Source: a sulfur-oxidizing endosymbiont of Gigantopelta aegis (GTDB taxonomy: Bacteria > Pseudomonadota > Gammaproteobacteria > GRL18). Taken from it: a DNA stretch of 64,000 nt. The notes under the pieces are model-generated. The model saw only the letters and a program-made list of their open reading frames with translations. It did no database searches and was not told where the DNA came from. Positions 4,950 to 47,051 of the stretch are shown here, piece by piece (within the stretch, counting starts at the first letter, position 1; each line of letters starts with the position of its first letter). A program made the position numbers and the translations under genes. Location: positions 3,476,857-3,540,856 of the forward strand of contig NZ_JAEHGE010000001.1 in NCBI RefSeq assembly GCF_016097415.1, given 5' to 3'.

Positions 4950-5124
4950 TTAGTATTCATCCGTTTATTCTAAAATTATTTGATAATTGCGACCGTAGGG
5001 TGGGCATGGCTTTATCTGCCCACGCTGACTCAAGCGCTTATTATGTACACTTTCAGCGTGGGCACAAAAGCGTGCCCACCCTACAGTTCTTTATATAAAA
5101 AACCTATTTACGGATGGATACTAG
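4950..5124. repeat. MITE-like palindromic element, copy A
   Basis: A 90-bp core (4995-5084) starts gtagggtgggcatggc and ends gtgcccaccctac, with inner arms cccacgctga and tcagcgtggg. It is flanked by about 40-bp arms ending in terminal inverted repeats ttagtattcatccg (4950-4963) and cggatggatactag (5111-5124). It fills the whole gap between the glycosyltransferase start and the metR stop. A second copy is at 40228-40409, with its outer arms exchanged relative to the core. No coding capacity. Likely a non-autonomous element or a folded RNA hairpin. Confidence 0.75.
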
Positions 5125-35114: not shown

Positions 35115-35121
35115 TATATTG

Positions 35122-36078
35122 ATGAAAAACTTTAAAAACATACTTTTTATTGCCGATGCAGAAATGCAATGTCGCCCAGCATTTGAGAGAGCTATGTTAC
35201 TGGCAGAAAATAATCAGGCCAACTTGACGGTTGCTACTATAGTTGATGAATTGCCCGGTTATTATCCACAGTTAATAAATGGTGAATTAAGCAAACAGAT
35301 AAAGGATGAGCATCTGAAGCAGATTGAAAATCTGGTCGCATCGGTATCGCATAGTAAAAAAGTGAGAGTCATTACGAAATTATTAGTTGGGAAACCTTTT
35401 TTGGCTATTATTCATGAAGTGCTGACTCAAAAAATAGAGCTAGTGATAAAAACGGTTGATAAAGAAACGTTTATGTCACGTCTTTTTGGTAGCTCTGATA
35501 TGAGTCTATTACGTGAATGTCCATGCCCTGTATGGTTATTAAAGTCATCAGTTCATGAACCGTATAAGAAGTTAATGGTTGCTATTGATTTTGATCCCAT
35601 GTCAACTGAACCAGTTGATGAGCAACTTAATCGACAAATTTTGAATATGTCCCTATCTCTGGCCTTGTCTGAATTTAGTGAGTTGCATATTGTTCATGTT
35701 TGGTCTGCCTATGGTGAAAGCGGTTTGCGAACTGGATTTGCAAAGCAACCTAAAAAAGATGTTGATGCCTATGTCAATGAAATACGAGTGAAGCATGAAA
35801 CGTATTTTAAACAACTGGTTTCAAGTGTGATTGATGAGGTAGGAAAAGAGGTCTCTGATTATATAAAACCTCAGGTTCATCTGATAAAAGGTAATGCTCG
35901 GGATAAAATTCCAGAATTCGCCAAAAAAGAGGAAGTTGATCTTATTTTGATGGGAACCCTTGCTCGAACCGGGGTGTCAGGTTTGTTTATGGGGAATACC
36001 TCGGAAACGATTCTAAGTCAAATTGACTGTTCCATTCTGGCTGTTAAACCTGAAGGATTTGTATCACCCGTTGCATAA
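35122..36078 (+). CDS. Universal stress protein, tandem UspA domains
   Basis: 318 residues with two Usp domains, as in UspE. The second has the ATP-binding glycine pattern GTLARTGVSGLFMGNTSE near residues 275-292. The first (about 1-145, KNILFIADAEMQCRPAFERA) has lost it, reading VDKETFMSRLFGSSDMSLL. I use ATG 35122; an in-frame TTG at 35119 would add one Met. A cytoplasmic stress or energy-status protein, placed here with ion pumps. It ends 21 bases before the convergent Na/Pi gene. Confidence 0.85.
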   Translation: MKNFKNILFIADAEMQCRPAFERAMLLAENNQANLTVATIVDELPGYYPQLINGELSKQIKDEHLKQIENLVASVSHSKKVRVITKLLVGKPFLAIIHEVLTQKIELVIKTVDKETFMSRLFGSSDMSLLRECPCPVWLLKSSVHEPYKKLMVAIDFDPMSTEPVDEQLNRQILNMSLSLALSEFSELHIVHVWSAYGESGLRTGFAKQPKKDVDAYVNEIRVKHETYFKQLVSSVIDEVGKEVSDYIKPQVHLIKGNARDKIPEFAKKEEVDLILMGTLARTGVSGLFMGNTSETILSQIDCSILAVKPEGFVSPVA

Positions 36079-36099: not shown

Positions 36100-37878
36100 C
36101 TAACCAATGGGCGGTGGAACATTTTTAGCGATACGTTTTGTTAAAGTGTAGATGCGTCGCATTTGTTCAACAAAAGCCATTTCAACTCGCACCAGTTTCA
36201 GGTAATCAGGATCATTGGTGCCAAGGCGAATGGCTTTTCGGCTAAGCAATGCATTTGAATTTTTAGCGATAATCTTTCTCATGGATATAACGGATTCAGC
36301 CGCTTTTTGGTCGTCATCCCGGATGGCTATCACGGTTAGTTCAAGCGCCTTGACCACAGATTGATGCAGTGTTTTCATTAATATCTGTGTCGTCTTTCCC
36401 GTTTTTGGCTTAAGCTCGCAGGCTTTATGAGCAAGTGCCTGCAGTTCATTTCTGACCACATCGGCAATACTTTCAAAATTGTCACAGGCAATCATTAATT
36501 GCTGAAAATTGTCACTGTCATGCTCACTGAGTTCCCCCCTACGAATAAGCCCTAGATAGTGTAAGATTTCTTCTTCAAGAATATCGACCTCGTCATAGCG
36601 TTTGGCAATCTCAATTACTGTTTGCATATTGCCGTTTTTGTAGGCGGTAAATATTTCATCTAACATCAGGCTGGTTATGTCACCCATTCTGCCCAGTTCC
36701 AGGCGTACTTGTTGCAGGGCGATGGGGGTAGAGACTAAGGCGTTTTTATCGATAAATTTGGGTGTAATAATAACCCCTACTTTGGCTTTGCGTTCAGGTA
36801 CTAGGAATTCAGCCAGGCGGGCAAACCAGGTTGTAAAGCCGATGAAGATCAGTGTGTTTATAATATTAAAAAATGTATTGGCATTGGCAATCTGTCGGGG
36901 CACTTCGGCGCCTGCTCGAGCTAGGCCTGTCAGTTCAGGTTCTGCAGGAGAGAGCCAGACGGCAATGTCTACTAAAAGCCAGATGAGCGGTAACCATATC
37001 AACACCCCCACAACATTAAAGACTACATGAACGACCGATGCCTGCACTGCCTGAGTGGACTTGCTGCTCATGACCCCCATGATGGCGGTGGTGATTGCGG
37101 TACCAATATTGGCGCCTAATGCAAGTGCGATACCTGCGGGTAAGGACAATAGACCTTCACTGGCCATTGCGATGGCAATACCAATGGTGGCAGCAGAGGA
37201 TTGAACTATTGCGGTAAATATGGCACCCGCTAAAATGCCGGCCATGGGTTTTTCAAGACTGACGAGTATGTCTAAGAAGGGCTGATAAGTACGCAATGGT
37301 GTCATGGTATGACTCATTAAGCCCATGCCGTAGAAGACTAGACCAATCCCCATGATCATCATGCCATAGTATTTCACTTTATCTTTTTTTGCCGTAAAAA
37401 GCATAAAAAACCCAATTGCCACCGGACCAAGGGAATAGGCCGCTAGATCAAATGCGAGTAATTGTGCGGTGACGGTACTGCCAATATTTGCCCCCATGAT
37501 GACCCCCACAGATTGTGCGAGAGTCATCATGCCACTACTGATAAAACCTACAACAAGTAGTGTTGTGACGGTGGATGAATTGAGAATGCCCGTGACAAAG
37601 GCGCCTGTTATGGCACCCATAAAACGATTTGTGGTGAGATGAGAGAGTACTTTTGTCATTGCGTCACCGGCGGCTTTTTTCATCCCCTCAGACAATAACT
37701 GCAAACCGGCAAGAAATAAGGCCAGGCCACCGAAAAGCCCCAATGCGAGTTGCAGCCAGTCAATTTTGACGTCTGTGGACGCTGCAAAAGCAAAGGGTGA
37801 GCCGCTAAAAAGCATGAGCAGGAAGATAAAACCTGAAATTTTACACAGTGTTAATGTCACTGAGGTGGCCTCGGTCAT
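36100..37878 (-). CDS. Na+/phosphate cotransporter family protein with PhoU-like tail
   Basis: 592 residues. A signal-like N-terminus (about 13-35) leads into the duplicated Na/Pi cotransport domain: GLALFLAGLQLLSEGMKKAA, FVTGILNSSTVTTLLVVGF in the first half and IFTAIVQSSAATIGIAIAMA in the second, the paired serine-rich motifs of the NptA/PF02690 family. Residues from about 385 form a helical PhoU-like domain (RRGELSEHDSDNFQQLMIAC). It probably imports or exports phosphate with Na+ at the inner membrane. It is divergent from the orphan at 38101, with a 220-base gap. Confidence 0.88.
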   Translation of the reverse strand: MTEATSVTLTLCKISGFIFLLMLFSGSPFAFAASTDVKIDWLQLALGLFGGLALFLAGLQLLSEGMKKAAGDAMTKVLSHLTTNRFMGAITGAFVTGILNSSTVTTLLVVGFISSGMMTLAQSVGVIMGANIGSTVTAQLLAFDLAAYSLGPVAIGFFMLFTAKKDKVKYYGMMIMGIGLVFYGMGLMSHTMTPLRTYQPFLDILVSLEKPMAGILAGAIFTAIVQSSAATIGIAIAMASEGLLSLPAGIALALGANIGTAITTAIMGVMSSKSTQAVQASVVHVVFNVVGVLIWLPLIWLLVDIAVWLSPAEPELTGLARAGAEVPRQIANANTFFNIINTLIFIGFTTWFARLAEFLVPERKAKVGVIITPKFIDKNALVSTPIALQQVRLELGRMGDITSLMLDEIFTAYKNGNMQTVIEIAKRYDEVDILEEEILHYLGLIRRGELSEHDSDNFQQLMIACDNFESIADVVRNELQALAHKACELKPKTGKTTQILMKTLHQSVVKALELTVIAIRDDDQKAAESVISMRKIIAKNSNALLSRKAIRLGTNDPDYLKLVRVEMAFVEQMRRIYTLTKRIAKNVPPPIG

Positions 37879-38100
37879 GAAGAAGAATAATATTTATATT
37901 GTATAATAGTACGAATTGACTATTCTTAGAAGGTGCTTTGTTCAAAATTCTCGAATAAATAAATGCTTCGAGGAATATACCATGCTGACAAATATACTTA
38001 TGATACTTACAGTAATGGTAAAGAATAAAACGACAGGAGGAAAAATCAATGCGATTAAGGTTTAAATGTTATCTAAGTTTAATGGATTGTAGACGATAGA

Positions 38101-39483
38101 ATGAGTGTTATTCTCAAAATAAAAATGCATGATAAATTTCGCCTAGAGCTTATCACGGTCAGTCATCCTCAGCAAAAGCCTTTAACCTTCGATTTGTTCT
38201 GGTTTTTTCCTAAAGAGCTGGATGTGACTCAATCCAGTTATCCCAAACCTTTGTTTTACCGCTATCTGAAAAATAATATGAGGTATCGTATTCCAGATCA
38301 AACATTGACGGAATTAACAGCGCCTGACAATCGTTATATAAAAATACTGGTTGATGAAATCATTAATGAAAATGATTTGGAATATCATCATGCCCTCAGG
38401 CTATTAAGTAATATCTTTGTCAAGGCTCTGAAGAAAGAAATAAACGTTCACACGGCCAATGAGAAGACTGAAGATATATTGCAAGCCAACATTCAGGTCA
38501 AGGCAGTTTTAAGGCGTTTACGTGCACAGATTACAATTTCCGGACAAGGAAATAAGTTTGGATTTCAGACTGTCAATCAATACTGTAGTAGTGAAGTTAT
38601 TCAAACCTACCTCGCTTGCATTGCGGACATTCCTGACGGGCAGATAAAAAATGCCTTGTTAAAGACCGTTGCAGAAGAAAATGAATACCGCCATGCAAAT
38701 AAGATGTCTGCATTAGATAATAATGCCAGCTTTATAAAATCCGTCCGGAAGCTAAAATTAATCCGGCGTTATTGTGAAGGTACACTGTTTCTTAAAACCC
38801 GTAGAAGCGAAGAAGGGGTTGTTGCACAGCAGATTATATTTAGTCTGGCTGCCGCTTTGTCCATGATGTTTGCAATGTTAATTGCCTTTTGGTCTCAGCA
38901 AAAATTTGGTAACTTTACCACGAGTTTTCTGGCGGCAATGGTATTAGGTTATATTGTTAAAGACAGGCTAAAAGAGTTGAGCCGGGAGGTAACATATCTC
39001 AGACTGAGCCGATATTTGTTTGACTTCAGCACACAATTGCAATCAGAGCGATTATTGCGTAAACCTACCATCGGCACAATCAAAGAAGTGGTACAATTTA
39101 TTAAGCCACGAAAACTGGATAATACGCTTAGAAATTTCTACCAGCAACAAGCGAACTATAGCAAGGATTCTTATGAATCAGTTTTAATGTATCGGCGGCA
39201 ATTTAAGACGAGTACAAAAATAATGCCAAAGGGCATTGATCAATATGTTAATTTTACGCTTTTTAACCTGAGAAAGATGTTGCGCAATGCGTCTTATCAG
39301 GACTATCCCTTTTTTTACCAAAAAGGCAGCAAAGTTATTTGTCGTATGGTGCAAAAAAGTTATCCAATAGAACTTGTGGCTCGTATCACCGGTGATGGGG
39401 AGGCACGTTATCAGCATTATACGCTGACAGTGACTCGAAAAGGTATTCGTCGCATTCATCAAGCCAGTTTTAATGATAACTAG
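38101..39483 (+). CDS. Unknown protein with two central membrane helices
   Basis: I do not recognise a family. 460 residues: a soluble N-terminal part of about 240, two membrane segments (QIIFSLAAALSMMFAMLIAF about 243-262 and FTTSFLAAMVLGYIVKD about 269-285), then a basic soluble part with about 25 Lys/Arg in the first 100. The hairpin would leave both soluble parts in the cytoplasm. A further region (YPIELVARITGDGEARYQHY) is beta-rich. It is followed after 93 bases by a CYTH-like protein on the same strand and may work with it. No catalytic motif is apparent. Confidence 0.6.
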   Translation: MSVILKIKMHDKFRLELITVSHPQQKPLTFDLFWFFPKELDVTQSSYPKPLFYRYLKNNMRYRIPDQTLTELTAPDNRYIKILVDEIINENDLEYHHALRLLSNIFVKALKKEINVHTANEKTEDILQANIQVKAVLRRLRAQITISGQGNKFGFQTVNQYCSSEVIQTYLACIADIPDGQIKNALLKTVAEENEYRHANKMSALDNNASFIKSVRKLKLIRRYCEGTLFLKTRRSEEGVVAQQIIFSLAAALSMMFAMLIAFWSQQKFGNFTTSFLAAMVLGYIVKDRLKELSREVTYLRLSRYLFDFSTQLQSERLLRKPTIGTIKEVVQFIKPRKLDNTLRNFYQQQANYSKDSYESVLMYRRQFKTSTKIMPKGIDQYVNFTLFNLRKMLRNASYQDYPFFYQKGSKVICRMVQKSYPIELVARITGDGEARYQHYTLTVTRKGIRRIHQASFNDN

Positions 39484-39576
39484 GCACCGTGTAAAAAATT
39501 TTTTTAAATGACTGTTGTCTATTGTTCTTAACGTGTTAATCATTTAATCTGTAGAAGATAAAAGGAAGGGAAAATT

Positions 39577-40233
39577 ATGTCTGATACAACCACATCTGAT
39601 ACAAATGTAAATATTGGCGAAGAGACAAAGCCCCGCTTTGAATTTAGAAGCTTTGGCCAGGATTTTTCAACACAAAGTGCTCGCATGGCACGCTTATCCT
39701 CACCAATACCTGAAAAATTATGGGAAAGAAGTTCGGATGAAATTTACATCATGTCCAGAATGAATAATGTCAATAATACCAAAGTGCGTGATGGCAAGAT
39801 GGATATCAAAACCTATGTGCAAACGGTTGACGGTCTGGAACAATGGAATCCACTGATGAAGGCGGAGTTTCCTATTGCGCATGATATACTGGAAAAATCA
39901 GTGTTTCCTGCTTTTCAGGTGGAGATGCCACAGCTTGAACAAGAACGCTATTCTTATGAAGAATTTATGGCAATCATCAATGCTCATCCTGATTTGCAGG
40001 CCGTTAAAGTCCATAAACAACGGTTTGCTTATATGGTTAATGATACTATTTGTGAAACAGGCAATATCTTGTTTAATGGTGCAAAAGTGTCAACCATTAA
40101 TTCTGAGTCTACAGAAATAGATGCGATTAAAAAAACACTCAGTGATACTGGCCTTGAAAACATTGAAAATATAAACTATCTTCAGGCCATTAAACGAGTG
40201 ATTGGAATGATAGATAAACCATTGGCCAATTAG
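39577..40233 (+). CDS. Possible CYTH-like protein 1 (cytoplasmic)
   Basis: 218 residues, no signal or membrane segment. SDEIYIMSRMNNVNNTKVRD followed by GKMDIKTYVQ and GLEQWNP recall the strand pattern and basic residues at the start of CYTH/triphosphate tunnel domains. The second half KQRFAYMVNDTICETGNILF plus STEIDAIKKTLSDTGLENIE fits the later strands and final helix. The EXEXK start motif is not clear, so the call is tentative. Its stop codon TAG lies inside the end of the palindromic element copy B. GGAAGGGAAA precedes the ATG. Confidence 0.5.
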   Translation: MSDTTTSDTNVNIGEETKPRFEFRSFGQDFSTQSARMARLSSPIPEKLWERSSDEIYIMSRMNNVNNTKVRDGKMDIKTYVQTVDGLEQWNPLMKAEFPIAHDILEKSVFPAFQVEMPQLEQERYSYEEFMAIINAHPDLQAVKVHKQRFAYMVNDTICETGNILFNGAKVSTINSESTEIDAIKKTLSDTGLENIENINYLQAIKRVIGMIDKPLAN

Positions 40234-40409
40234 TGCCCATCTGTTAATAGTTTTTTTTATCAGTATAAAATAGTAGGGTGGGCATGGCTTTATCTGCCCA
40301 CGCTGACTCAATACTTTGTATTCACACTTTCAGCGTGGGCACAAAAAGCGTGCCCACCCTACAGTCACAATTATCAAATAATTCTAGAATAAACGGATGG
40401 GCACCAATT
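40228..40409. repeat. MITE-like palindromic element, copy B
   Basis: The 90-bp core (40273-40362) matches the core of copy A (4995-5084) in the same orientation. The outer ends are inverted repeats aattagtgcccatctg (40228) and cggatgggcaccaatt (to 40409). The arm on the right of this core matches, in reverse complement, the arm on the left of the copy A core. The left end supplies the TAG stop of the gene before it. It fills most of the gap to the CYTH gene at 40475. Confidence 0.75.
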
Positions 40410-40474
40410 AATGCTTAAACATTAGTTGGCAAATAAAAAAGCAACGTAACGACTGACATTAGAGAGAAAATAAA

Positions 40475-40945
40475 ATGCCTTTTGAAATTGAAAAAAAGTT
40501 CCTGGTTTCAGGTGAACAGTATAAACAAGACGCTGAGAAGCAGGTGCGTATTGTTCAGGGGTATCTATCGACAGTACCTGAACGCACGGTACGCATTCGC
40601 ATTAAAGCTAATACCGGCTATCTGACCATCAAAGGTAAGGGAAATCAATCGGGTGCTACCCGTTATGAGTGGGAAAAAGAAATCAGCGTGGGAGATGCTA
40701 AAGAACTATTAGCGCTTTGTGAGTCCGGAGTCATTGATAAAACACGTTTTCTGGTGAAGTCAGGGAAACACACCTTTGAAGTCGATGAGTTTTATGGTGA
40801 TAATCAGGGTTTGGTGGTGGCCGAGGTCGAACTTGAATCAGAAGATGAGGCATTCGAAAAACCATCATGGCTTGCCGAAGAAGTCACCGGACAAAACCAA
40901 TATTATAATGCCATGCTAATGGCCAAGCCTTTTAAAAACTGGTAG
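40475..40945 (+). CDS. CYTH domain protein (triphosphate tunnel metalloenzyme)
   Basis: 156 residues, a complete single CYTH domain. The EXEXK-type signature is FEIEKKFLV at the N-terminus. RTVRIRIKANTGYLTIKGKG gives the paired basic residues lining the tunnel. RYEWEKEI, then KTRFLVKSGKHTFEVDEFYG and VVAEVELESED complete the acidic and basic set that binds metal and triphosphate. Bacterial single-domain members of this type include inorganic triphosphatases, so hydrolysis of PPPi or another organic triphosphate in the cytoplasm is likely; adenylate cyclase activity is less likely. It is followed at 41001 by an SLC13 carrier on the same strand. Confidence 0.88.
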   Translation: MPFEIEKKFLVSGEQYKQDAEKQVRIVQGYLSTVPERTVRIRIKANTGYLTIKGKGNQSGATRYEWEKEISVGDAKELLALCESGVIDKTRFLVKSGKHTFEVDEFYGDNQGLVVAEVELESEDEAFEKPSWLAEEVTGQNQYYNAMLMAKPFKNW

Positions 40946-41000
40946 TATCGAATACAAGACAAGTTTATACCTGTCTTGAATCTGTAGAATAAGGATTTTT

Positions 41001-42614
41001 ATGGCAGAACAAAGGCCAACAACGTCTGATCCGCTGGATATGAATAACTATCGGATCGAACACCTACCAATACGTGAGAAATCTGGTTTTGAGCAAAGGC
41101 TTGAGCAAATTGGCCTGCCTTTAGCGATTATCACCTTTTTTGCCATCCTGCTTTTTTTCAATGTCCCCTATTTGGAAACTATTAATCCTGAAATTTTGGG
41201 TAAACGTGCTTTAGAACAGTATGAGACTCTGGGGGCAGAAGCATTCGCACAAACAAATATTGCCATGATGGCTATTTTTGTTGCCGCGATTATTCTCTGG
41301 ATCACCGAAGCCATTCCCAATTATCTGACCTCGTTTCTAGTGATTATTACCATTGTACTCACGGGTGTCACCCCTGAGCGTGAAGCCTATGCTCAGCTGG
41401 GACATCCAGTGATGTGGCTGAACATTCTTTCCTTTATACTGGCCAGCATGCTGGTTAAAACCTCAGCAGCCAAACGTTTTGCCCTATGGTTTATTGTACG
41501 CTTTGGCCATAATGCCACCTCCATATTTTTCAGCTTTATTTTTATTAATATTATTCTTTCCATGTTTATTTCTGCCACCACTGCCAAAGCAGCTATTTTG
41601 TTACCCATTTTTATGGTGATAGCGGCTGTTTTTGGGGCTACGGGCGGTAAAAACAAAAATAATTTTGGCCGTAATCTGGTATTGCAAAATCTGTTTCAAA
41701 TTAATATGGGAGCGGGTATGTTTATTACCGGCTCCGGCGCCAATTTATTGGCTGGGGCGCTAATTGCCGGTGCTTTGGCCGACATGAATGATTTTTCTTT
41801 TTATGCTTGGATGGAAGCTGCTTTTTTCCTGTCATTTTTTAATATTCTTATTGGCTGGTTTATAGGCACCCGGTTTATTTTTAAAATACCTAAAGAAGAG
41901 GCGGTTCCTCAGATTGAAGGCGGCTTGGAACGTTTGCGTGAAGAACTGCAGAAAATGGGCAAAATCCGCTTTGAAGAAATCAAAGCCATACTTATTTTTG
42001 TCTGTGTACTCGCTGGTTGGGTCACGGACTCTTATCATGGTGTCAGCAAAACAGCGATAGCTTTTATTGGTGCCATTGTTTCCTTGATGCCGGTAGTTGG
42101 CGTGGTGAAATGGAACGATGTTGATATTCCCTGGCACTTATTATTATTTTCTGCCGGAGCTTATACTTTAGGAGCAGGCTTTTCCACCACTGATCTGCCT
42201 AATATCTCGGTTGATGCCCTGTTTAATTATCTGGGCTTTACTGATGTAACACCCTTTTGGATACTATTTTTGATCCTCACCGGGGGAATGTTATTCAGTG
42301 CGCTGATTTTTCAATCCAAAACCATGCGTACTTTAATTTTTATCCCTATCGCCATTGGTACGGCACAAAAATTTGGCTATCCTATTCTTAGTCTGGCCTT
42401 GCCGGTTGCGTTATTAATTGAACATGTTTATGCTTTACCGTTCAATAGTAAACCGGCGGCTTTGCTTTATGTGACCGATCACTATAGCTGGTCTGATACC
42501 TTTAAATTTGGTGTGACCATGCTCTTTGTTGCCTGGGTAATGATCATAATCTGGAGTGAAACCTGGTTAAGGTGGTTAGGTTATCTACCCAATGGTGTGT
42601 TTGGTTTGTTTTAG
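41001..42614 (+). CDS. SLC13/DASS-family anion:Na+ symporter
   Basis: 537 residues, about 12 membrane helices after an N-terminal hydrophilic segment of 35. The family pattern is seen in IILWITEAIPNYLTSFLVII, FISATTAKAAILLPIFMVIA and SAGAYTLGAGFSTTDLP. A hydrophilic loop with many Lys/Glu lies at about 300-330. Members carry sulfate, phosphate or dicarboxylates with sodium. The placement between a triphosphatase and a phosphate-type porin favours an inorganic anion, by inference. Start ATG 41001 follows AAGGA. Confidence 0.82.
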   Translation: MAEQRPTTSDPLDMNNYRIEHLPIREKSGFEQRLEQIGLPLAIITFFAILLFFNVPYLETINPEILGKRALEQYETLGAEAFAQTNIAMMAIFVAAIILWITEAIPNYLTSFLVIITIVLTGVTPEREAYAQLGHPVMWLNILSFILASMLVKTSAAKRFALWFIVRFGHNATSIFFSFIFINIILSMFISATTAKAAILLPIFMVIAAVFGATGGKNKNNFGRNLVLQNLFQINMGAGMFITGSGANLLAGALIAGALADMNDFSFYAWMEAAFFLSFFNILIGWFIGTRFIFKIPKEEAVPQIEGGLERLREELQKMGKIRFEEIKAILIFVCVLAGWVTDSYHGVSKTAIAFIGAIVSLMPVVGVVKWNDVDIPWHLLLFSAGAYTLGAGFSTTDLPNISVDALFNYLGFTDVTPFWILFLILTGGMLFSALIFQSKTMRTLIFIPIAIGTAQKFGYPILSLALPVALLIEHVYALPFNSKPAALLYVTDHYSWSDTFKFGVTMLFVAWVMIIIWSETWLRWLGYLPNGVFGLF

Positions 42615-42712
42615 AAAGAGAAAGAGTACAAATAAAATAATAATAATAACTGCTAAAAGTGAAACATTTGCTTTAAAAAATTATAATCGTTATTAAAAAA
42701 TAGGAATTAAGT

Positions 42713-44206
42713 ATGCGTAAAAATGGTATGAAATTAAATAGACATAGCGCTCAACCTGGGCGATTTCTACTCACAGCATCGGTCTCATTAGCTATTATGG
42801 GTTCTTTTAGCGTGCCTGCTTTCGCTGTTTCTAATGATGAAATCATGAAAGAACTGAGAAGGCTGCAACAACGAGTGCAAAAAGTAGAGTCAAAACTGGA
42901 AATAACTGAGCAAGAATTGACTTCCACAAAACAAGAACTGGTCAAGACGAAGAAAGAACTGATTGATACTCAGGTGACCAGTAAAAAGCCCAATATTCGC
43001 TTCTCAAAAACAACCGGTATGCCTAAGTTAGTATCGGATGATCGTAGCTCTTCTCTAGAGTTTAATGGTCGGGTACAGCTGGATGTTGCAGCACTTCCTG
43101 ATCAGCATAAGAATGGTAGAAATAGAGATAGTAACTTCTTTTCCAGTCGCACAGAAAGTGAAATTCGCAGGGCAAGACTGGGCATTGAAGGTGTATTCCA
43201 TTCAGACTGGGAATATGAACTGGAATTAGACTTTGCCGAAAATGAAGTGGATTTGAAAAAAGCACAGCTCACCTATGGGGGTATCAAAGATAATGATATT
43301 ACCGTCGGTTTTCAGCGTGTTGCTTTTGGTCTGGAAAATACTGCCAGCTCACGATATACCACCTTTATGGAGCGAGGCTTAACCGATACTTTTTCACCGG
43401 ATAGAAATCTGGGTGTTGCCTGGCGTTATACTGGCTGGGATTGGGGACAGTTTAAGGTCGGTGCTTATATTCCAAATACAATTGATTCGACCTCAGAAGA
43501 TGACATCGACGCGGGTGAAACCACTCATCGAAGTGATGCTTATAATTATGTGGGTCGTTTTACTGTGGTACCGATTAATTTAAGTAATCAGGTGCTACAT
43601 TTAGGTGTTAGTGCTGCTTATACCAATTTCAGTAATGTTGATTCAGGCGATGCTATTCGCTATCGAGCTCGACCCGAATCACATTTGTCGCAAAGGTTGG
43701 TGACAACGGGTAAATTTTATGACCCTGACAATAGCAAAACATATGGACTTGAAGCTGCTTATTCCGGCTATGGATTTCTGCTCCAAAGTGAATATGTCGG
43801 AGTCTCAACTAAAGGCTATTATGATGATGATAAGTTAAGAAATGAGGATACTTATAAATATGACAGCTGGTATGTTTCAGCGGCCTATATGCTAACGGGT
43901 GAGACGCATGCTTATAGACGAAAAGGTGGTACCTTTGGCAATGTTATGCCCGATCATCCTCTTTCAAAAGGGGGCTGGGGTGCCTGGGAAATTGCTGGAC
44001 GCTTTAGTTCCATTGATTTGAATGATAATGGTGAAAAGGGTGGTCAACTGGATGATTTCACCTTTGGGGTGAATTGGTATATGGAAAACAATCTAAAACT
44101 GATGTTTAACTATATCCGCTATGATGCAGATAGTTATGAAGAATATCCAAAATATGAAGATCAGGATGACAATATACTCCAAACCCGTCTGCAGTGGTTC
44201 TTTTAG
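42713..44206 (+). CDS. Phosphate-selective-type porin (OprO/OprP family)
   Basis: 497 residues: a long signal peptide ending at about PAFA, a periplasmic coiled coil (EIMKELRRLQQRVQKVESKL and following, about 43-90), and a beta-barrel beginning SSLEFNGRVQLDVAAL and ending in LQTRLQWFF with the terminal Phe typical of outer-membrane barrels. The repeated RRARLGIEGVFHSDWEYELE and FAFGLENT-like segments are characteristic of Porin_O_P. It should form an anion or polyphosphate channel in the outer membrane, feeding the carriers in this cluster. The coiled coil suggests trimerisation in the periplasm. Confidence 0.87.
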   Translation: MRKNGMKLNRHSAQPGRFLLTASVSLAIMGSFSVPAFAVSNDEIMKELRRLQQRVQKVESKLEITEQELTSTKQELVKTKKELIDTQVTSKKPNIRFSKTTGMPKLVSDDRSSSLEFNGRVQLDVAALPDQHKNGRNRDSNFFSSRTESEIRRARLGIEGVFHSDWEYELELDFAENEVDLKKAQLTYGGIKDNDITVGFQRVAFGLENTASSRYTTFMERGLTDTFSPDRNLGVAWRYTGWDWGQFKVGAYIPNTIDSTSEDDIDAGETTHRSDAYNYVGRFTVVPINLSNQVLHLGVSAAYTNFSNVDSGDAIRYRARPESHLSQRLVTTGKFYDPDNSKTYGLEAAYSGYGFLLQSEYVGVSTKGYYDDDKLRNEDTYKYDSWYVSAAYMLTGETHAYRRKGGTFGNVMPDHPLSKGGWGAWEIAGRFSSIDLNDNGEKGGQLDDFTFGVNWYMENNLKLMFNYIRYDADSYEEYPKYEDQDDNILQTRLQWFF

Positions 44207-44224
44207 AACTTCCTGAAGAATAGT

Positions 44225-44259
44225 ATTAATCTGGATAGTGCTAAGCGATCCAGATTAAT
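44225..44259 (+). terminator. Hairpin after the OprO/P-like gene
   Basis: ATTAATCTGGAT (44225-44236) and ATCCAGATTAAT (44248-44259) form a perfect 12-pair stem with an 11-base loop, 18 bases after the porin stop. No T run follows on the plus strand. Terminator or mRNA stabiliser. Confidence 0.55.
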
Positions 44260-44300
44260 GCTCTGCTTATTACTATCGTTATAGCTTATAGGAAATAACC

Positions 44301-45131
44301 GTGAAAAAAATATTATTGATCGCAGTATTATTAAATACTCTCTTTGTTTTACCCGTATTTGCACTGGATATCAGTCATTTTACCCAGTCTGAATATGCCT
44401 TTAACCTTCAGGAACCAGAAGGTTTGAATAGCACACCAGGCTCACTCGCAGGCCAGCGTGAAAAATTATATGACTTCATCAATTTTGAACCGGGCAATGA
44501 TGAAAAACTGGTTACTTATCTGGATACACCGGATCGTATTTTAGCTAAAAATTCATTGATTATTCGTGTCAGAGAAGACTTAAGAAGTCCCAGAAAAACC
44601 CGCATTACCGTTAAGCTCAGAGCCGAATCTCCAGCGGATTTTGGTGATATTAAACGCTATAGAAAAGCTGAAATTGATATCGTTGGCGGCAATAAATCCT
44701 ATAGTGTCAGCTGGGATATTCGCTATAATCACAATGATATCAATGTCAGAAAAGTAAATATACTCGCTGTTTTAGATCGCATTAAGAAAAAGAATCCTGA
44801 AGCCTGGAATGTTGTAGAAACACGCTTAGAGGGAAAAAGTGAGCAATTAATACAAACACTGGTGATGCGCACCTTATCCTGGGAAGGACCGATTACAAAA
44901 GTACGAGGTATCGTAGAAATGGACTATACTATTTGGAGTCCCCTGTATAAAGAAAATGACGAAGCATTTACCTCCATGTCATTTAAAGGGAAAACCAAAG
45001 ATAAAAACCTGTTAGCGGTTGTCAAACGTGTTGATGCTGTGCTTGCTGAAAAAGGGCTTGCTATCCCACCGGAAAAGTCTTTTTCAAAAACCAGAAGAAC
45101 GTTTGATATGAGTCCCGGTTTTAAGCAATAA
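44301..45131 (+). CDS. Exported CYTH-like protein
   Basis: 276 residues with a clear Sec signal peptide (MKKILLIAVLLNTLFVLPVFA, cut before LDISH). The mature part has the CYTH-like series YLDTPDRILAKNSLIIRVRE, then RKTRITVKLRAESP and KRYRKAEIDIVGG, with alternating basic and acidic residues as in the tunnel fold. The canonical EXEXK start is not obvious. If real, it would be a triphosphate- or polyphosphate-handling enzyme in the periplasm, just behind the OprO/P-like porin encoded 94 bases upstream. The family assignment is inferred. Confidence 0.55.
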   Translation: MKKILLIAVLLNTLFVLPVFALDISHFTQSEYAFNLQEPEGLNSTPGSLAGQREKLYDFINFEPGNDEKLVTYLDTPDRILAKNSLIIRVREDLRSPRKTRITVKLRAESPADFGDIKRYRKAEIDIVGGNKSYSVSWDIRYNHNDINVRKVNILAVLDRIKKKNPEAWNVVETRLEGKSEQLIQTLVMRTLSWEGPITKVRGIVEMDYTIWSPLYKENDEAFTSMSFKGKTKDKNLLAVVKRVDAVLAEKGLAIPPEKSFSKTRRTFDMSPGFKQ

Positions 45132-45233: not shown

Positions 45234-47051
45234 TTAGGGTGTCAAAGGAAACAATAGTGGCACTGTCAGTAAAGTGATTAGCATCGCTAGGATTTGTAAT
45301 GGCACCCCAATTTTTACAAAGTCATTAAATTTATAACCGCCCGGTCCCAGAACCAGCGTATTAACGGGGGAAGCAACGGGTGTAGCAAATGCGGTGGATG
45401 CTGCAATGGCTACGGTCATAAGAATCGGATATACGGAAATATTCAGTGCAATAGCCGCTGCCACAGCAATAGGCGCAATGAGTACTGTAGTGGCTGTATT
45501 TGAAATAAATTGACTAAAGAGTGATGTTAAAACGAACAGCCCCGCCATCAAAGCAAAGGGACCATAGTCGCCCAAACCATTGACCAGGCCATTGGCAAGC
45601 AGTGTGACAGCGCCAGTTTTGTCCAGAGCAGTTGCCATCGGTAGCATGCCGGCAATCAGCACAAGGCTCTGGGTATTCAGTGAGTGGTAGGCATTATTCA
45701 TACTGATACAGCCTGTGACAATCATCGCTAATGCGGCCAATAACACTGCCGTCACACTGGGCACCAGATTAAACGTCATCAGTATCAGCATAATAGCAAG
45801 AATCGCTAGTGCTAATGGTGCTTTGCGCCGGCGGGGAGCTACCTCTGCAATTTCTTCTGGCAGATTTAATACCAGAAAGTCATCATGTTCTTCCTGTAGG
45901 CGACAAATGGACCGCCACCCTCCGGCAACCAATAGAGAGTCACCAAATTCCAAGGCTGTATGGGAAAAATTTTCTTCCAGCGGTTCACCCATTCGCTGAA
46001 TGCCAAGTACGGTTAGACCATGCTGTTCCCTAAAATTTACCTCGACCAAACCATGGCTAATGAGTTCAGAGTTTGGTGTCAGTAATACCTCAGCCAATCC
46101 CAACTCTTTTTTTGCGAGTTGTAGCTGGTATTTATTCAGTGGTGTTTCATTCAGTCTCTCATCGCTGCACAATGAGTTCAAATTAGAGTCGTTGCCAGCG
46201 ACTAATAGTGAATCGTTATGCTCGAGGCGAGTATGGGATAAAGCGGGTGCTAGAAAACCATCATGCTCGATACCAATGACCATGGTATCGTAGCGGCTCA
46301 GTAATCTGGCTTGTTCTATCGTTTGGCCGTGTAAGGGAGAGTTCGCTCCTAAATGTAGACGACGGATTCTTTTTCGGACGCCATAAGCATCCGCCAGTTC
46401 TCGAATGGTACGGCGGCTACGACGTGCTTTGGCGGCTGTTCGATGGGGTAGCAGATGACGTCCTATCAACAGCACATAGATAATACCACTTGCTAATATC
46501 AGTAGGCCAATGGGGGTAAAGCTGAAAAAGCTAAAGGGTTCCAGCCCCTCGCGTTCCAGCTGAATGCTCACCACCAGATTGGGTGGTGTGCCAATGAGAG
46601 TTAACATGCCCCCCATTAAGGAGGCCAGTGAAATAGGCAAGAGTAGTCGGGAAGGATTGATGCCTGATTTTGCGGCTAGGCTGAGTACAATAGGAATGAA
46701 AATGGCGACGGCACCCGTAGAGCTCATAAAGGCAGATAATCCAGCAACTACCAGCATGAGCATTACCATGAGACGTAGTTCATGAGTGCCTGCGACCCGC
46801 ATCAACCAGTCACCGACAGCAAAGGCAATACCTGTTCGGTAAAGTCCTTCACCGATGACAAAAAGCCCAGCAATTAACAACACGACTGGATCACCAAAAC
46901 CAGCCAGCGCTTCAACAGGTGTGAGTAAACCGCTCAGCATAAGACATAGGATAGCACCTATTGCAACAACATCTAAGCGAACTTTGTCACTCACAAAAAG
47001 GATGATGATAATAAGCAGTAGTCCAAATACGAATATCATGTCACCACTCAT
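45234..47051 (-). CDS. SLC13-type permease with two RCK_C (TrkA-C) domains
   Basis: 605 residues. Two membrane halves flank a cytoplasmic insert (about 205-395) with two TrkA-C-like domains, seen in GANSPLHGQTIEQARLLSRY with HNDSLLVAG and ELISHGLVEVNFREQHGLTV with FGDSLLVAGG. The membrane part has LIGTPPNLVVSIQLEREG and the SNTATTVLIAPIAVAAAI motif of Na+-coupled anion carriers. The layout matches the SAC1/YfbS-like group; sulfate or another anion is likely. A strong AAAGGAGTG ribosome site lies 5 bases before ATG 47051. Confidence 0.85.
   Translation of the reverse strand: MSGDMIFVFGLLLIIIILFVSDKVRLDVVAIGAILCLMLSGLLTPVEALAGFGDPVVLLIAGLFVIGEGLYRTGIAFAVGDWLMRVAGTHELRLMVMLMLVVAGLSAFMSSTGAVAIFIPIVLSLAAKSGINPSRLLLPISLASLMGGMLTLIGTPPNLVVSIQLEREGLEPFSFFSFTPIGLLILASGIIYVLLIGRHLLPHRTAAKARRSRRTIRELADAYGVRKRIRRLHLGANSPLHGQTIEQARLLSRYDTMVIGIEHDGFLAPALSHTRLEHNDSLLVAGNDSNLNSLCSDERLNETPLNKYQLQLAKKELGLAEVLLTPNSELISHGLVEVNFREQHGLTVLGIQRMGEPLEENFSHTALEFGDSLLVAGGWRSICRLQEEHDDFLVLNLPEEIAEVAPRRRKAPLALAILAIMLILMTFNLVPSVTAVLLAALAMIVTGCISMNNAYHSLNTQSLVLIAGMLPMATALDKTGAVTLLANGLVNGLGDYGPFALMAGLFVLTSLFSQFISNTATTVLIAPIAVAAAIALNISVYPILMTVAIAASTAFATPVASPVNTLVLGPGGYKFNDFVKIGVPLQILAMLITLLTVPLLFPLTP

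Follow-up and report, generated by a model that had tools for sequence, protein, structure and literature searches.

Results

Gene content of the island

This report concerns a phosphate-related gene island at positions 36100 to 45131 of a 64,000-nt window, the whole stretch of DNA that was analysed, from a sulfur-oxidizing endosymbiont of Gigantopelta aegis (contig NZ_JAEHGE010000001.1; genome G000 below). Genes are named by their start coordinates within the window. The island combines carriers and an outer-membrane porin with three further proteins: 40475 is an ordinary CYTH protein, 39577 represents a new tunnel-fold family of the cytoplasm, and 44301 is probably an exported protein of tunnel fold. 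The gene set recurs in other genomes. Six plus-strand genes occupy 38101 to 45131, with intergenic gaps of 93, 241, 55, 98 and 94 bases, and are divergent from the Na/Pi (inorganic phosphate) cotransporter gene (Table 1). All open reading frames (ORFs) were found where the first-pass annotation had placed them, and the SLC13 carrier, OprO/P-type porin and Na/Pi cotransporter with PhoU-like tail that it named were each recovered with Pfam matches above the cut-offs.

Table 1. Features of the island, in window coordinates
Feature	Coordinates	Strand	Evidence or context
Na/Pi cotransporter with PhoU-like tail	36100..37878	-	Na_Pi_cotrans PF02690, E 6e-56, 188.7 bits; PhoU PF01895, E 5e-11, 43.3 bits
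Unknown 460-aa protein with central hydrophobic stretch, island member	38101..39483	+	No Pfam match above cut-off, no NCBIfam match
New cytoplasmic triphosphate-tunnel-fold family, altered tunnel residues (RxExR)	39577..40233	+	AlphaFold2, Foldseek, VIA
90-bp element with inverted ends GTAGGGTGGGCA	40273..40362		Between 39577 and CYTH gene 40475
CYTH/triphosphate tunnel protein, EIEKK (ExExK) motif, probable tripolyphosphatase	40475..40945	+	PF01928, E 2e-17
DASS/SLC13 carrier, subfamily accompanying 38101	41001..42614	+	Na_sulph_symp PF00939, E 8e-47, 160.7 bits
OprP/OprO-like outer-membrane porin	42713..44206	+	Porin_O_P PF07396, E 1.1e-63, 216.2 bits
Probably exported protein, probable triphosphate-tunnel fold, catalytic Glu set apparently incomplete	44301..45131	+	Sub-threshold CYTH match, AlphaFold2, Foldseek, VIA

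A new family of cytoplasmic tunnel-fold proteins

Pfam gave protein 39577 no CYTH match at E ≤ 1 and no family above cut-off, and sequence searches of the Protein Data Bank with 39577 or 44301, alone or as profiles, returned nothing useful. An AlphaFold2 model of 39577 from eight sequences was confident (pLDDT 88.9, pTM 0.83) and was compared with solved chains using Foldseek; a second structure aligner, VIA, was also applied. Foldseek returned 41 chains at E ≤ 1e-3, with best TM-scores by query length (TMq) of 0.46 to 0.49. The leading match was the putative adenylate cyclase 2gfg (E 2.4e-6, TMq 0.46, root-mean-square deviation (rmsd) 7.3), followed by ygiF, AtTTM3 with tripolyphosphate and thiamine triphosphatase. 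By title, the 41 matches are triphosphate tunnel (TTM) enzymes, putative or known CYTH-type cyclases, capping-enzyme RNA triphosphatases and Mediator chains, together with three chains whose titles are uninformative (1yem, 2dc4 and 3v85).

VIA gave its highest scores to three archaeal proteins with uninformative titles (2een, Z 12.7, rmsd 3.4, 154 residues aligned; 1yem, Z 12.6; 2dc4, Z 12.4), followed by plant TTM1 (7z67, Z 12.2), Sulfolobus SaTTM (7ns9) and ygiF (5a60; both Z 12.0). According to its guidance, Z < 8 may mean merely a common arrangement, and the scores for 39577 exceed that ambiguous level. We conclude firmly from the model that 39577 has the triphosphate-tunnel fold; its first-pass description as a cytoplasmic relative of CYTH proteins is upheld by fold, without support from sequence. 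VTC proteins were considered as the nearest relatives and rejected, as the VTC rows shown had Z values of 8.0 to 8.4, below the single-domain TTM proteins, though some kinship may exist. Profile comparisons between the families with hhalign were all insignificant, the alignments being too shallow; only structure comparison joined them.

We inferred the tunnel residues of 39577 by hand, from motif order, VIA alignment starts and hairpin spacing. Where TTM enzymes have E-x-E-x-K, 39577 appears to carry R20-x-E22-x-R24, invariant in all nine sequences of the family; the other residues mapped in the nine were K69/R71, K78, K147/R149, E160, a variable position 175 (N, C or A) and E177.

The nine sequences come from genomes G000, G057, G058, G333, G272, G107, G326, G280 and G586, the G058 copy having been found by reading the contig. 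By set, 39577 was present in one of 57 relatives of G000 (itself; none of the other 56 carries it), in 6 of 291 genomes of the class of G057 and in 4 of 274 genomes of the window's class, its own included, where the G586 match is convincing (78.8 bits). A match in G380 (19.4 bits) falls in an apparently LepA-like translation factor and was dismissed as fortuitous. In genome G040, the 39577 profile matches part of a 417-aa protein (L027:685-1938) at 34.4 bits, and the N-terminal domain of this protein is GPP34 (Golgi phosphoprotein 3); the match was excluded from the nine.

The CYTH protein 40475

Protein 40475 matches Pfam CYTH at 64 bits (cut-off 23.2), and a profile of seven relatives retrieved the NE1496 triphosphatase 3typ as the nearest solved relative (E 1.7e-24). 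The ExExK motif and a C-terminal ExE (E4, E6, K8, E117 and E119) are invariant in the seven sequences. These properties bear out its annotation as a bona fide CYTH protein. NE1496 (NeuTTM) is described as a specific inorganic triphosphatase in PMC3440374, and on sequence grounds 40475 is a probable tripolyphosphatase.

The probably exported protein 44301 and its neighbours in other genomes

The Pfam CYTH match of 44301 falls below the cut-off (14.7 against 23.2 bits, E 0.028), as do those of the two relatives scanned (18.3 and 14.1 bits), and all three begin at profile position 38. Its N-terminus resembles a Sec signal, with hydrophobic residues 4 to 22 in an automatic scan followed by a V-F-A cleavage-like site seen by eye, and the protein is probably exported. 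The AlphaFold2 model of 44301, from four sequences, was poor (pLDDT 52.7, pTM 0.54). The first five of its 370 Foldseek matches were nevertheless all TTM or VTC proteins: AtTTM3 with tripolyphosphate came first among 350,542 solved chains (E 1.2e-4, the sole value below 0.001; TMq 0.30, rmsd 8.6), ygiF with tripolyphosphate third, and VTC chains second, fourth and fifth, with unrelated folds mixed in from rank six. The best VIA score was Z 6.4 (5a68, rmsd 4.5, 165 residues aligned), below the level of 8, and of the first 18 VIA rows three had uninformative titles, while the remaining 15 named a TTM, a VTC or a CYTH-type cyclase. The first-pass view of 44301 as an exported CYTH-like protein therefore holds provisionally, on its weak Pfam matches, Foldseek ranking and signal-like N-terminus; we regard it as probably a tunnel-fold protein. 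Residues tentatively mapped by hand onto this low-confidence model are E31-Y-A-F-N, R89/R91, K105, E124 and R190, with S227 and K229 where the paired C-terminal Glu would be expected; Ser227 and Lys229 are invariant in the four full-length sequences.

A contig scan with 44301 found two relatives, in metagenome-assembled genomes titled Desulfobacteraceae (L006, G057) and Desulfobacterales (L007, G058), and the gene was present in 3 of 86 genomes of the Desulfobacteraceae-type family of G057 (G057, G058 and G333), which are the genomes besides G000 with a full-length copy. In all three, 44301 lies directly upstream of a gene for a second exported CYTH-like protein and one for an exported PF00719 pyrophosphatase. 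The second CYTH-like family (L006:10972-12012, L007:2568-3611 and L011:10707-11747) has members in the three genomes that are 81 to 83% identical to the first of them (L006), bears by eye the motif YYDTP..L..LGYVVRITT..ALTVKF, and had no Pfam match in the two proteins scanned. The exported family-I pyrophosphatase (L006:12122-13546, L007:3695-5116 and L011:11847-13268) has a C-terminal part of about 250 aa without known identity, and a separate gene beside it resembles that part by eye (L006:13726-14436, L007:5249-5935 and L011:13312-14100). A literature search for exported or periplasmic bacterial CYTH/TTM proteins found none, judged by titles and abstract starts and with coverage lacking most subscription papers.

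Within the window's own genus, 44301 seems to be decaying. The G013 version (L002:1432-1968), the nearest to that of G000 at 72% identity, has an in-frame loss of residues 157 to 253, and G005 retains a 44-residue remnant at 43% identity (L013:12639-12770); an assembly fault is possible. The shortened version and the remnant each have a Na/Pi gene on one side and a CYTH gene on the other, the latter sharing 85% identity with 40475 in G013 and 82% in G005.

Carriers, porin and protein 38101

Na/Pi protein 36100 also scored above the cut-offs of two NCBIfam Na/Pi models, and in translations read from two same-genus genomes (L012 and L013) similar Na/Pi genes adjoin the CYTH gene. A universal stress gene adjoins the Na/Pi-PhoU gene in the window (35119-36078) and, by resemblance, in G280 (L024:6960-7439). 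Carrier 41001 fell below the cut-off of the NCBIfam DASS model (186.9 against 198.6 bits). A second carrier, of CitMHS/DASS type with TrkA_C domains by Pfam, directly adjoins the island on the opposite strand (45234-47051, minus). Protein 38101 had been annotated as a two-helix membrane protein of unknown family; no family was matched, and by eye its hydrophobic stretch at about 245 to 290 has room for two helices, whereas the automatic scan gave a single segment (245 to 263).

The Porin_O_P match of 42713 far exceeds its cut-off of 20.9 bits and covers residues 118 to 496, most of the barrel. Aligned to OprP (2o4v, E 2.2e-21), its R155 and R202 fall at Tyr62 and Tyr114. Both positions vary between the OprO entries 4rjw and 4rjx. 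Residues there presumably set the preference for phosphate or for its more condensed forms. The added positive charge in 42713 would suit more highly charged anions. A literature search for OprO with tripolyphosphate uptake found no paper, in coverage that lacks most subscription papers.

Recurrence of the gene set

The neighbourhoods of 39577 and 44301 relatives were read in the other genomes; genes not covered by Pfam or pairwise comparison are named from the resemblance of their translations. A 39577 relative directly adjoins a CYTH gene in five of the nine genomes (G000, G107, G326, G280 and G586), and a Pi transporter lies within the region read in seven. Clustering with phosphate genes recurs, 39577 has a confident tunnel fold, and 44301 is matched best by tunnel proteins, although on a poor model; neither outcome that the first-pass annotation had named as refuting was observed. 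Chance co-location of the island genes was considered and rejected because the set recurs in other genomes. The family founded by 39577 is rare and lies beside polyphosphate and phosphate-transport genes.

G057 has, in order, DHH/DHHA2, SLC13, porin, LysR, PhoU-like DUF47, PiT, 39577, 44301, second exported CYTH-like, exported pyrophosphatase and C-terminal-domain-like genes, with 38101 just upstream, and in G333 the order is 38101, SLC13, DHH, LysR, DUF47, PiT, 39577, porin, 44301, second CYTH-like, pyrophosphatase and C-terminal-domain gene. G058 carries 39577, PiT, DUF47, LysR, SLC13, DHH and 38101 on one contig, and 44301, second CYTH-like, pyrophosphatase and C-terminal-domain genes on another; a porin was not seen within the stretches read. 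G272 has porin, 39577, PiT, DUF47, LysR, DHH, 38101 and SLC13, with neither 44301 nor a PF00719 match.

The order in G107 is porin, LysR, 39577, CYTH, Tct-type genes, DUF47 and PiT, and in G586 39577 and CYTH are adjacent. G326 and G280 have PPK1, a CHAD protein, ParA-like, guanylate-kinase-like, 39577, CYTH, SixA-like and two PPK2 genes, assigned by Pfam for G326 and by resemblance for G280, where translations also resemble a Na/Pi and a universal stress gene. CHAD domains bind polyphosphate, according to PMC6537752. The CHAD protein (L023:6391-7950 and L024:11639-13288), within this PPK1/PPK2/SixA cluster with its ParA-like and guanylate-kinase-like genes, begins with 220 residues that match no Pfam family in the L023 copy and by eye resemble a degenerate tunnel domain.

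Co-occurrence was counted in 19 genomes: G000, seven others of its genus, three of its family and eight already known to carry a 39577 or 44301 relative. The counts are an association within this choice, not a frequency, because the genomes were hand-picked. Protein 38101 was found in five of the 19 (G000, G057, G058, G272 and G333; four of 18 besides its own), near 39577 and phosphate transporters. Those five are also the genomes that carry relatives of 41001 at 49 to 65% identity; no further DASS match among those listed exceeds 85.4 bits. An OprP-like porin was seen in four of the five. The seven other same-genus genomes have neither 38101 nor the SLC13 subfamily of 41001. PF00719 was found in 14 of the 19, with long frames (473 to 494 aa, signal-like N-termini) only in G057, G058 and G333.

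The genes of the island differ in their nearest relatives. Carrier 41001 is 64% identical to the G057 and G058 copies, which are only 48 to 50% identical to those of G272 and G333, and the tree joins it with the former pair; porin 42713 is also nearest to G057 (48%). The 39577 protein of G000 groups with the CYTH-linked copies (46% G107, 43% G326 and 41% G280), apart from the PiT-linked ones (40 to 41%). These relationships fit a composite locus, partly exchanged between distant bacteria; no direction of exchange is assigned.

Transcription signals and a repeat element

The genes 38101 to 45131 may form one or two transcripts, since a 90-bp element lies in the 241 bases between 39577 and the CYTH gene and may split the run. 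Promoter-like sites (24 found, 21.4 expected) and terminator-like sites (8 found, 5.5 expected) were counted. The element and a second copy at 4995-5084 have the inverted ends GTAGGGTGGGCA, a single end lies at 1922-1933, and the five matches compare with 0.13 expected; the elements look like a small mobile repeat.

Discussion

We tentatively read the block 36100 to 45131, with a little less than even confidence, as a recurring module that lets cells exploit condensed phosphates (polyphosphate, tripolyphosphate and pyrophosphate). Porin 42713 would let condensed phosphate into the periplasm, where 44301 may capture it and either cut it or hand it on. In some Desulfobacteraceae relatives, the second exported CYTH-like protein and the exported pyrophosphatase would join 44301 and complete the breakdown to Pi. 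The products would be imported by the Na/Pi carrier 36100 (PiT in relatives), and perhaps also by the SLC13 carrier. In the cytoplasm, 40475 would hydrolyse tripolyphosphate to pyrophosphate and Pi, and 39577 may bind tri- or polyphosphate and help or regulate 40475, perhaps as its partner. The pathway proposed in the first-pass annotation is plausible and better supported than on first reading: it fits the gene set and gains from the exported pyrophosphatases beside 44301 relatives in three genomes and from the PPK and CHAD genes beside 39577 relatives in two, whereas the enzyme roles given to 39577 and 44301 were not sustained. Its enzymatic steps, substrates and regulation are what we infer from the gene set. 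A more specific version, in which the block is a dedicated system for external condensed phosphate, with entry through the porin, periplasmic breakdown by exported tunnel-fold proteins (with the pyrophosphatase in some relatives), ion-driven Pi uptake and 39577 as partner of the cytoplasmic triphosphatase, is possible and on the unlikely side.

Several observations weigh against this module. The set is rare: 44301 was found in only 3 of 57 relatives of G000, itself included (the others being G013 and G005), and in 2 of 291 genomes of the class of G057. The G000 island has neither the second exported CYTH-like gene nor an exported pyrophosphatase beside 44301, and the single PF00719 match in this genome is a 204-aa frame about a megabase away. 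In G586, 26 ORFs were listed in 20 kb, and the nine of them that were scanned included no phosphate transporter. Matches to the Pho-box pattern in the window numbered 6 against a mean of 5.7 in shuffles, and regulation of the island through this pattern was rejected, as it is no commoner than in shuffles. The tunnel assignment of 44301 comes from a poor model (pLDDT 52.7, best TM-score by query length 0.30). Finally, the solved SLC13 relatives of 41001 bear the names of dicarboxylate or citrate transporters or of SLC13 member 1, a sulfate carrier, and the hand mapping leaves the catalytic residues of both 39577 and 44301 looking incomplete, with some metal-binding Glu of sites 1 and 2 apparently lost.

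In a serious rival to the enzyme reading, 39577 and 44301 would have no catalytic role: their tunnels would bind polyphosphate or a similar ligand, and the proteins would serve as sensors or holders tuning the transporters and the CYTH enzyme, much as some eukaryotic tunnel-fold proteins seem to have lost catalysis. According to PMC4641920, AtTTM3 and ygiF need two metal sites, site 1 at Glu-169/160 and site 2 an acidic patch (Glu-2, -4, -90 and -171 in AtTTM3); mutation of the metal-binding Glu strongly reduces or impairs activity; four basic residues replace the acidic patch in Vtc4; and Med18/Med20 share the tunnel fold and appear to have lost catalysis. RxExR replaces ExExK in all nine 39577 relatives, Ser and Lys stand where Glu would be expected in all four full-length 44301 sequences, and Mediator chains are among the fold matches of 39577 in both Foldseek and VIA. 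The enzyme status of the two proteins is not proven because both apparently miss some of the catalytic acidic residues; the mapping suggests that their tunnels are unusually basic and hold triphosphate-like ligands, perhaps without the hydrolysis seen in AtTTM3. The residue mapping was by hand, and for 44301 on a low-confidence model, and the exported pyrophosphatases beside 44301 relatives speak for a degradative path; we consider purely non-catalytic roles possible but not probable.

Two further explanations were considered. The island might serve the storage and mobilization of internal polyphosphate, in which case porin and carriers would do no more than supply Pi and 44301 would have a task in the cell envelope. 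The presence of 39577 and CYTH among PPK1, PPK2 and CHAD genes in G326, and apparently G280, is consistent with this, as are the nearby Na/Pi or PiT genes with PhoU-like partners, but this explanation does not account for genes of three exported proteins (one of tunnel fold, a second CYTH-like one and a pyrophosphatase) in one stretch with porin and PiT, and we think it rather unlikely. That the carriers and porin move another anion, such as dicarboxylate or sulfate, while the tunnel proteins act on nucleotides, would agree with the names of the solved SLC13 relatives and with the adenylate cyclases among CYTH proteins mentioned in PMC3440374. Against it stands the recurrent association with Na/Pi, PiT, PhoU-like, DHH/DHHA2 and pyrophosphatase genes, and we regard it as very improbable.

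A module for condensed phosphates would bear on a wider problem. Wider literature searches found no described system of such composition, judged by titles and abstract starts and with coverage lacking most subscription papers, and a 2026 paper on Haloferax volcanii states that the mechanism by which marine bacteria and algae consume external polyphosphate, including access and transport into the cell, remains unknown. With a recurring set that comprises a porin, phosphate carriers, exported tunnel-fold proteins and, in part of the genomes, an exported pyrophosphatase, the question could be tested one gene at a time. The 39577 family is, in addition, a natural experiment on how a tunnel behaves once its catalytic acids are swapped for bases.

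Comparison with known systems

Each part of the island has known counterparts. The PPK1/PPK2/CHAD polyphosphate clusters contain relatives of 39577 and CYTH in G326 and, by resemblance, in G280; the island differs in having transporters and a porin, and no PPK among the proteins scanned. With OprP and OprO of Pseudomonas, 42713 shares the Porin_O_P family and differs by Arg at the Tyr62 and Tyr114 positions, and its selectivity is a prediction. The tunnel domain of the VTC polyphosphate polymerase (Vtc4 and Vtc2) shares its fold with 39577 and probably with 44301, and ranks high among the matches of 44301, whereas no Pfam VTC match was found at E ≤ 1 and 39577 and 44301 are single-domain proteins without a membrane part. 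Compared with the CYTH/TTM tripolyphosphatases (NE1496/NeuTTM, the ygiF TTM domain and AtTTM3), 40475 is alike in family and motif, while 39577 and, probably, 44301 are alike in fold class by model comparison and both differ in tunnel residues, 44301 also in being probably exported. In this respect 39577 approaches the VTC tunnel domain, as it seems to carry extra basic tunnel residues in the way that Vtc4 does relative to AtTTM3.

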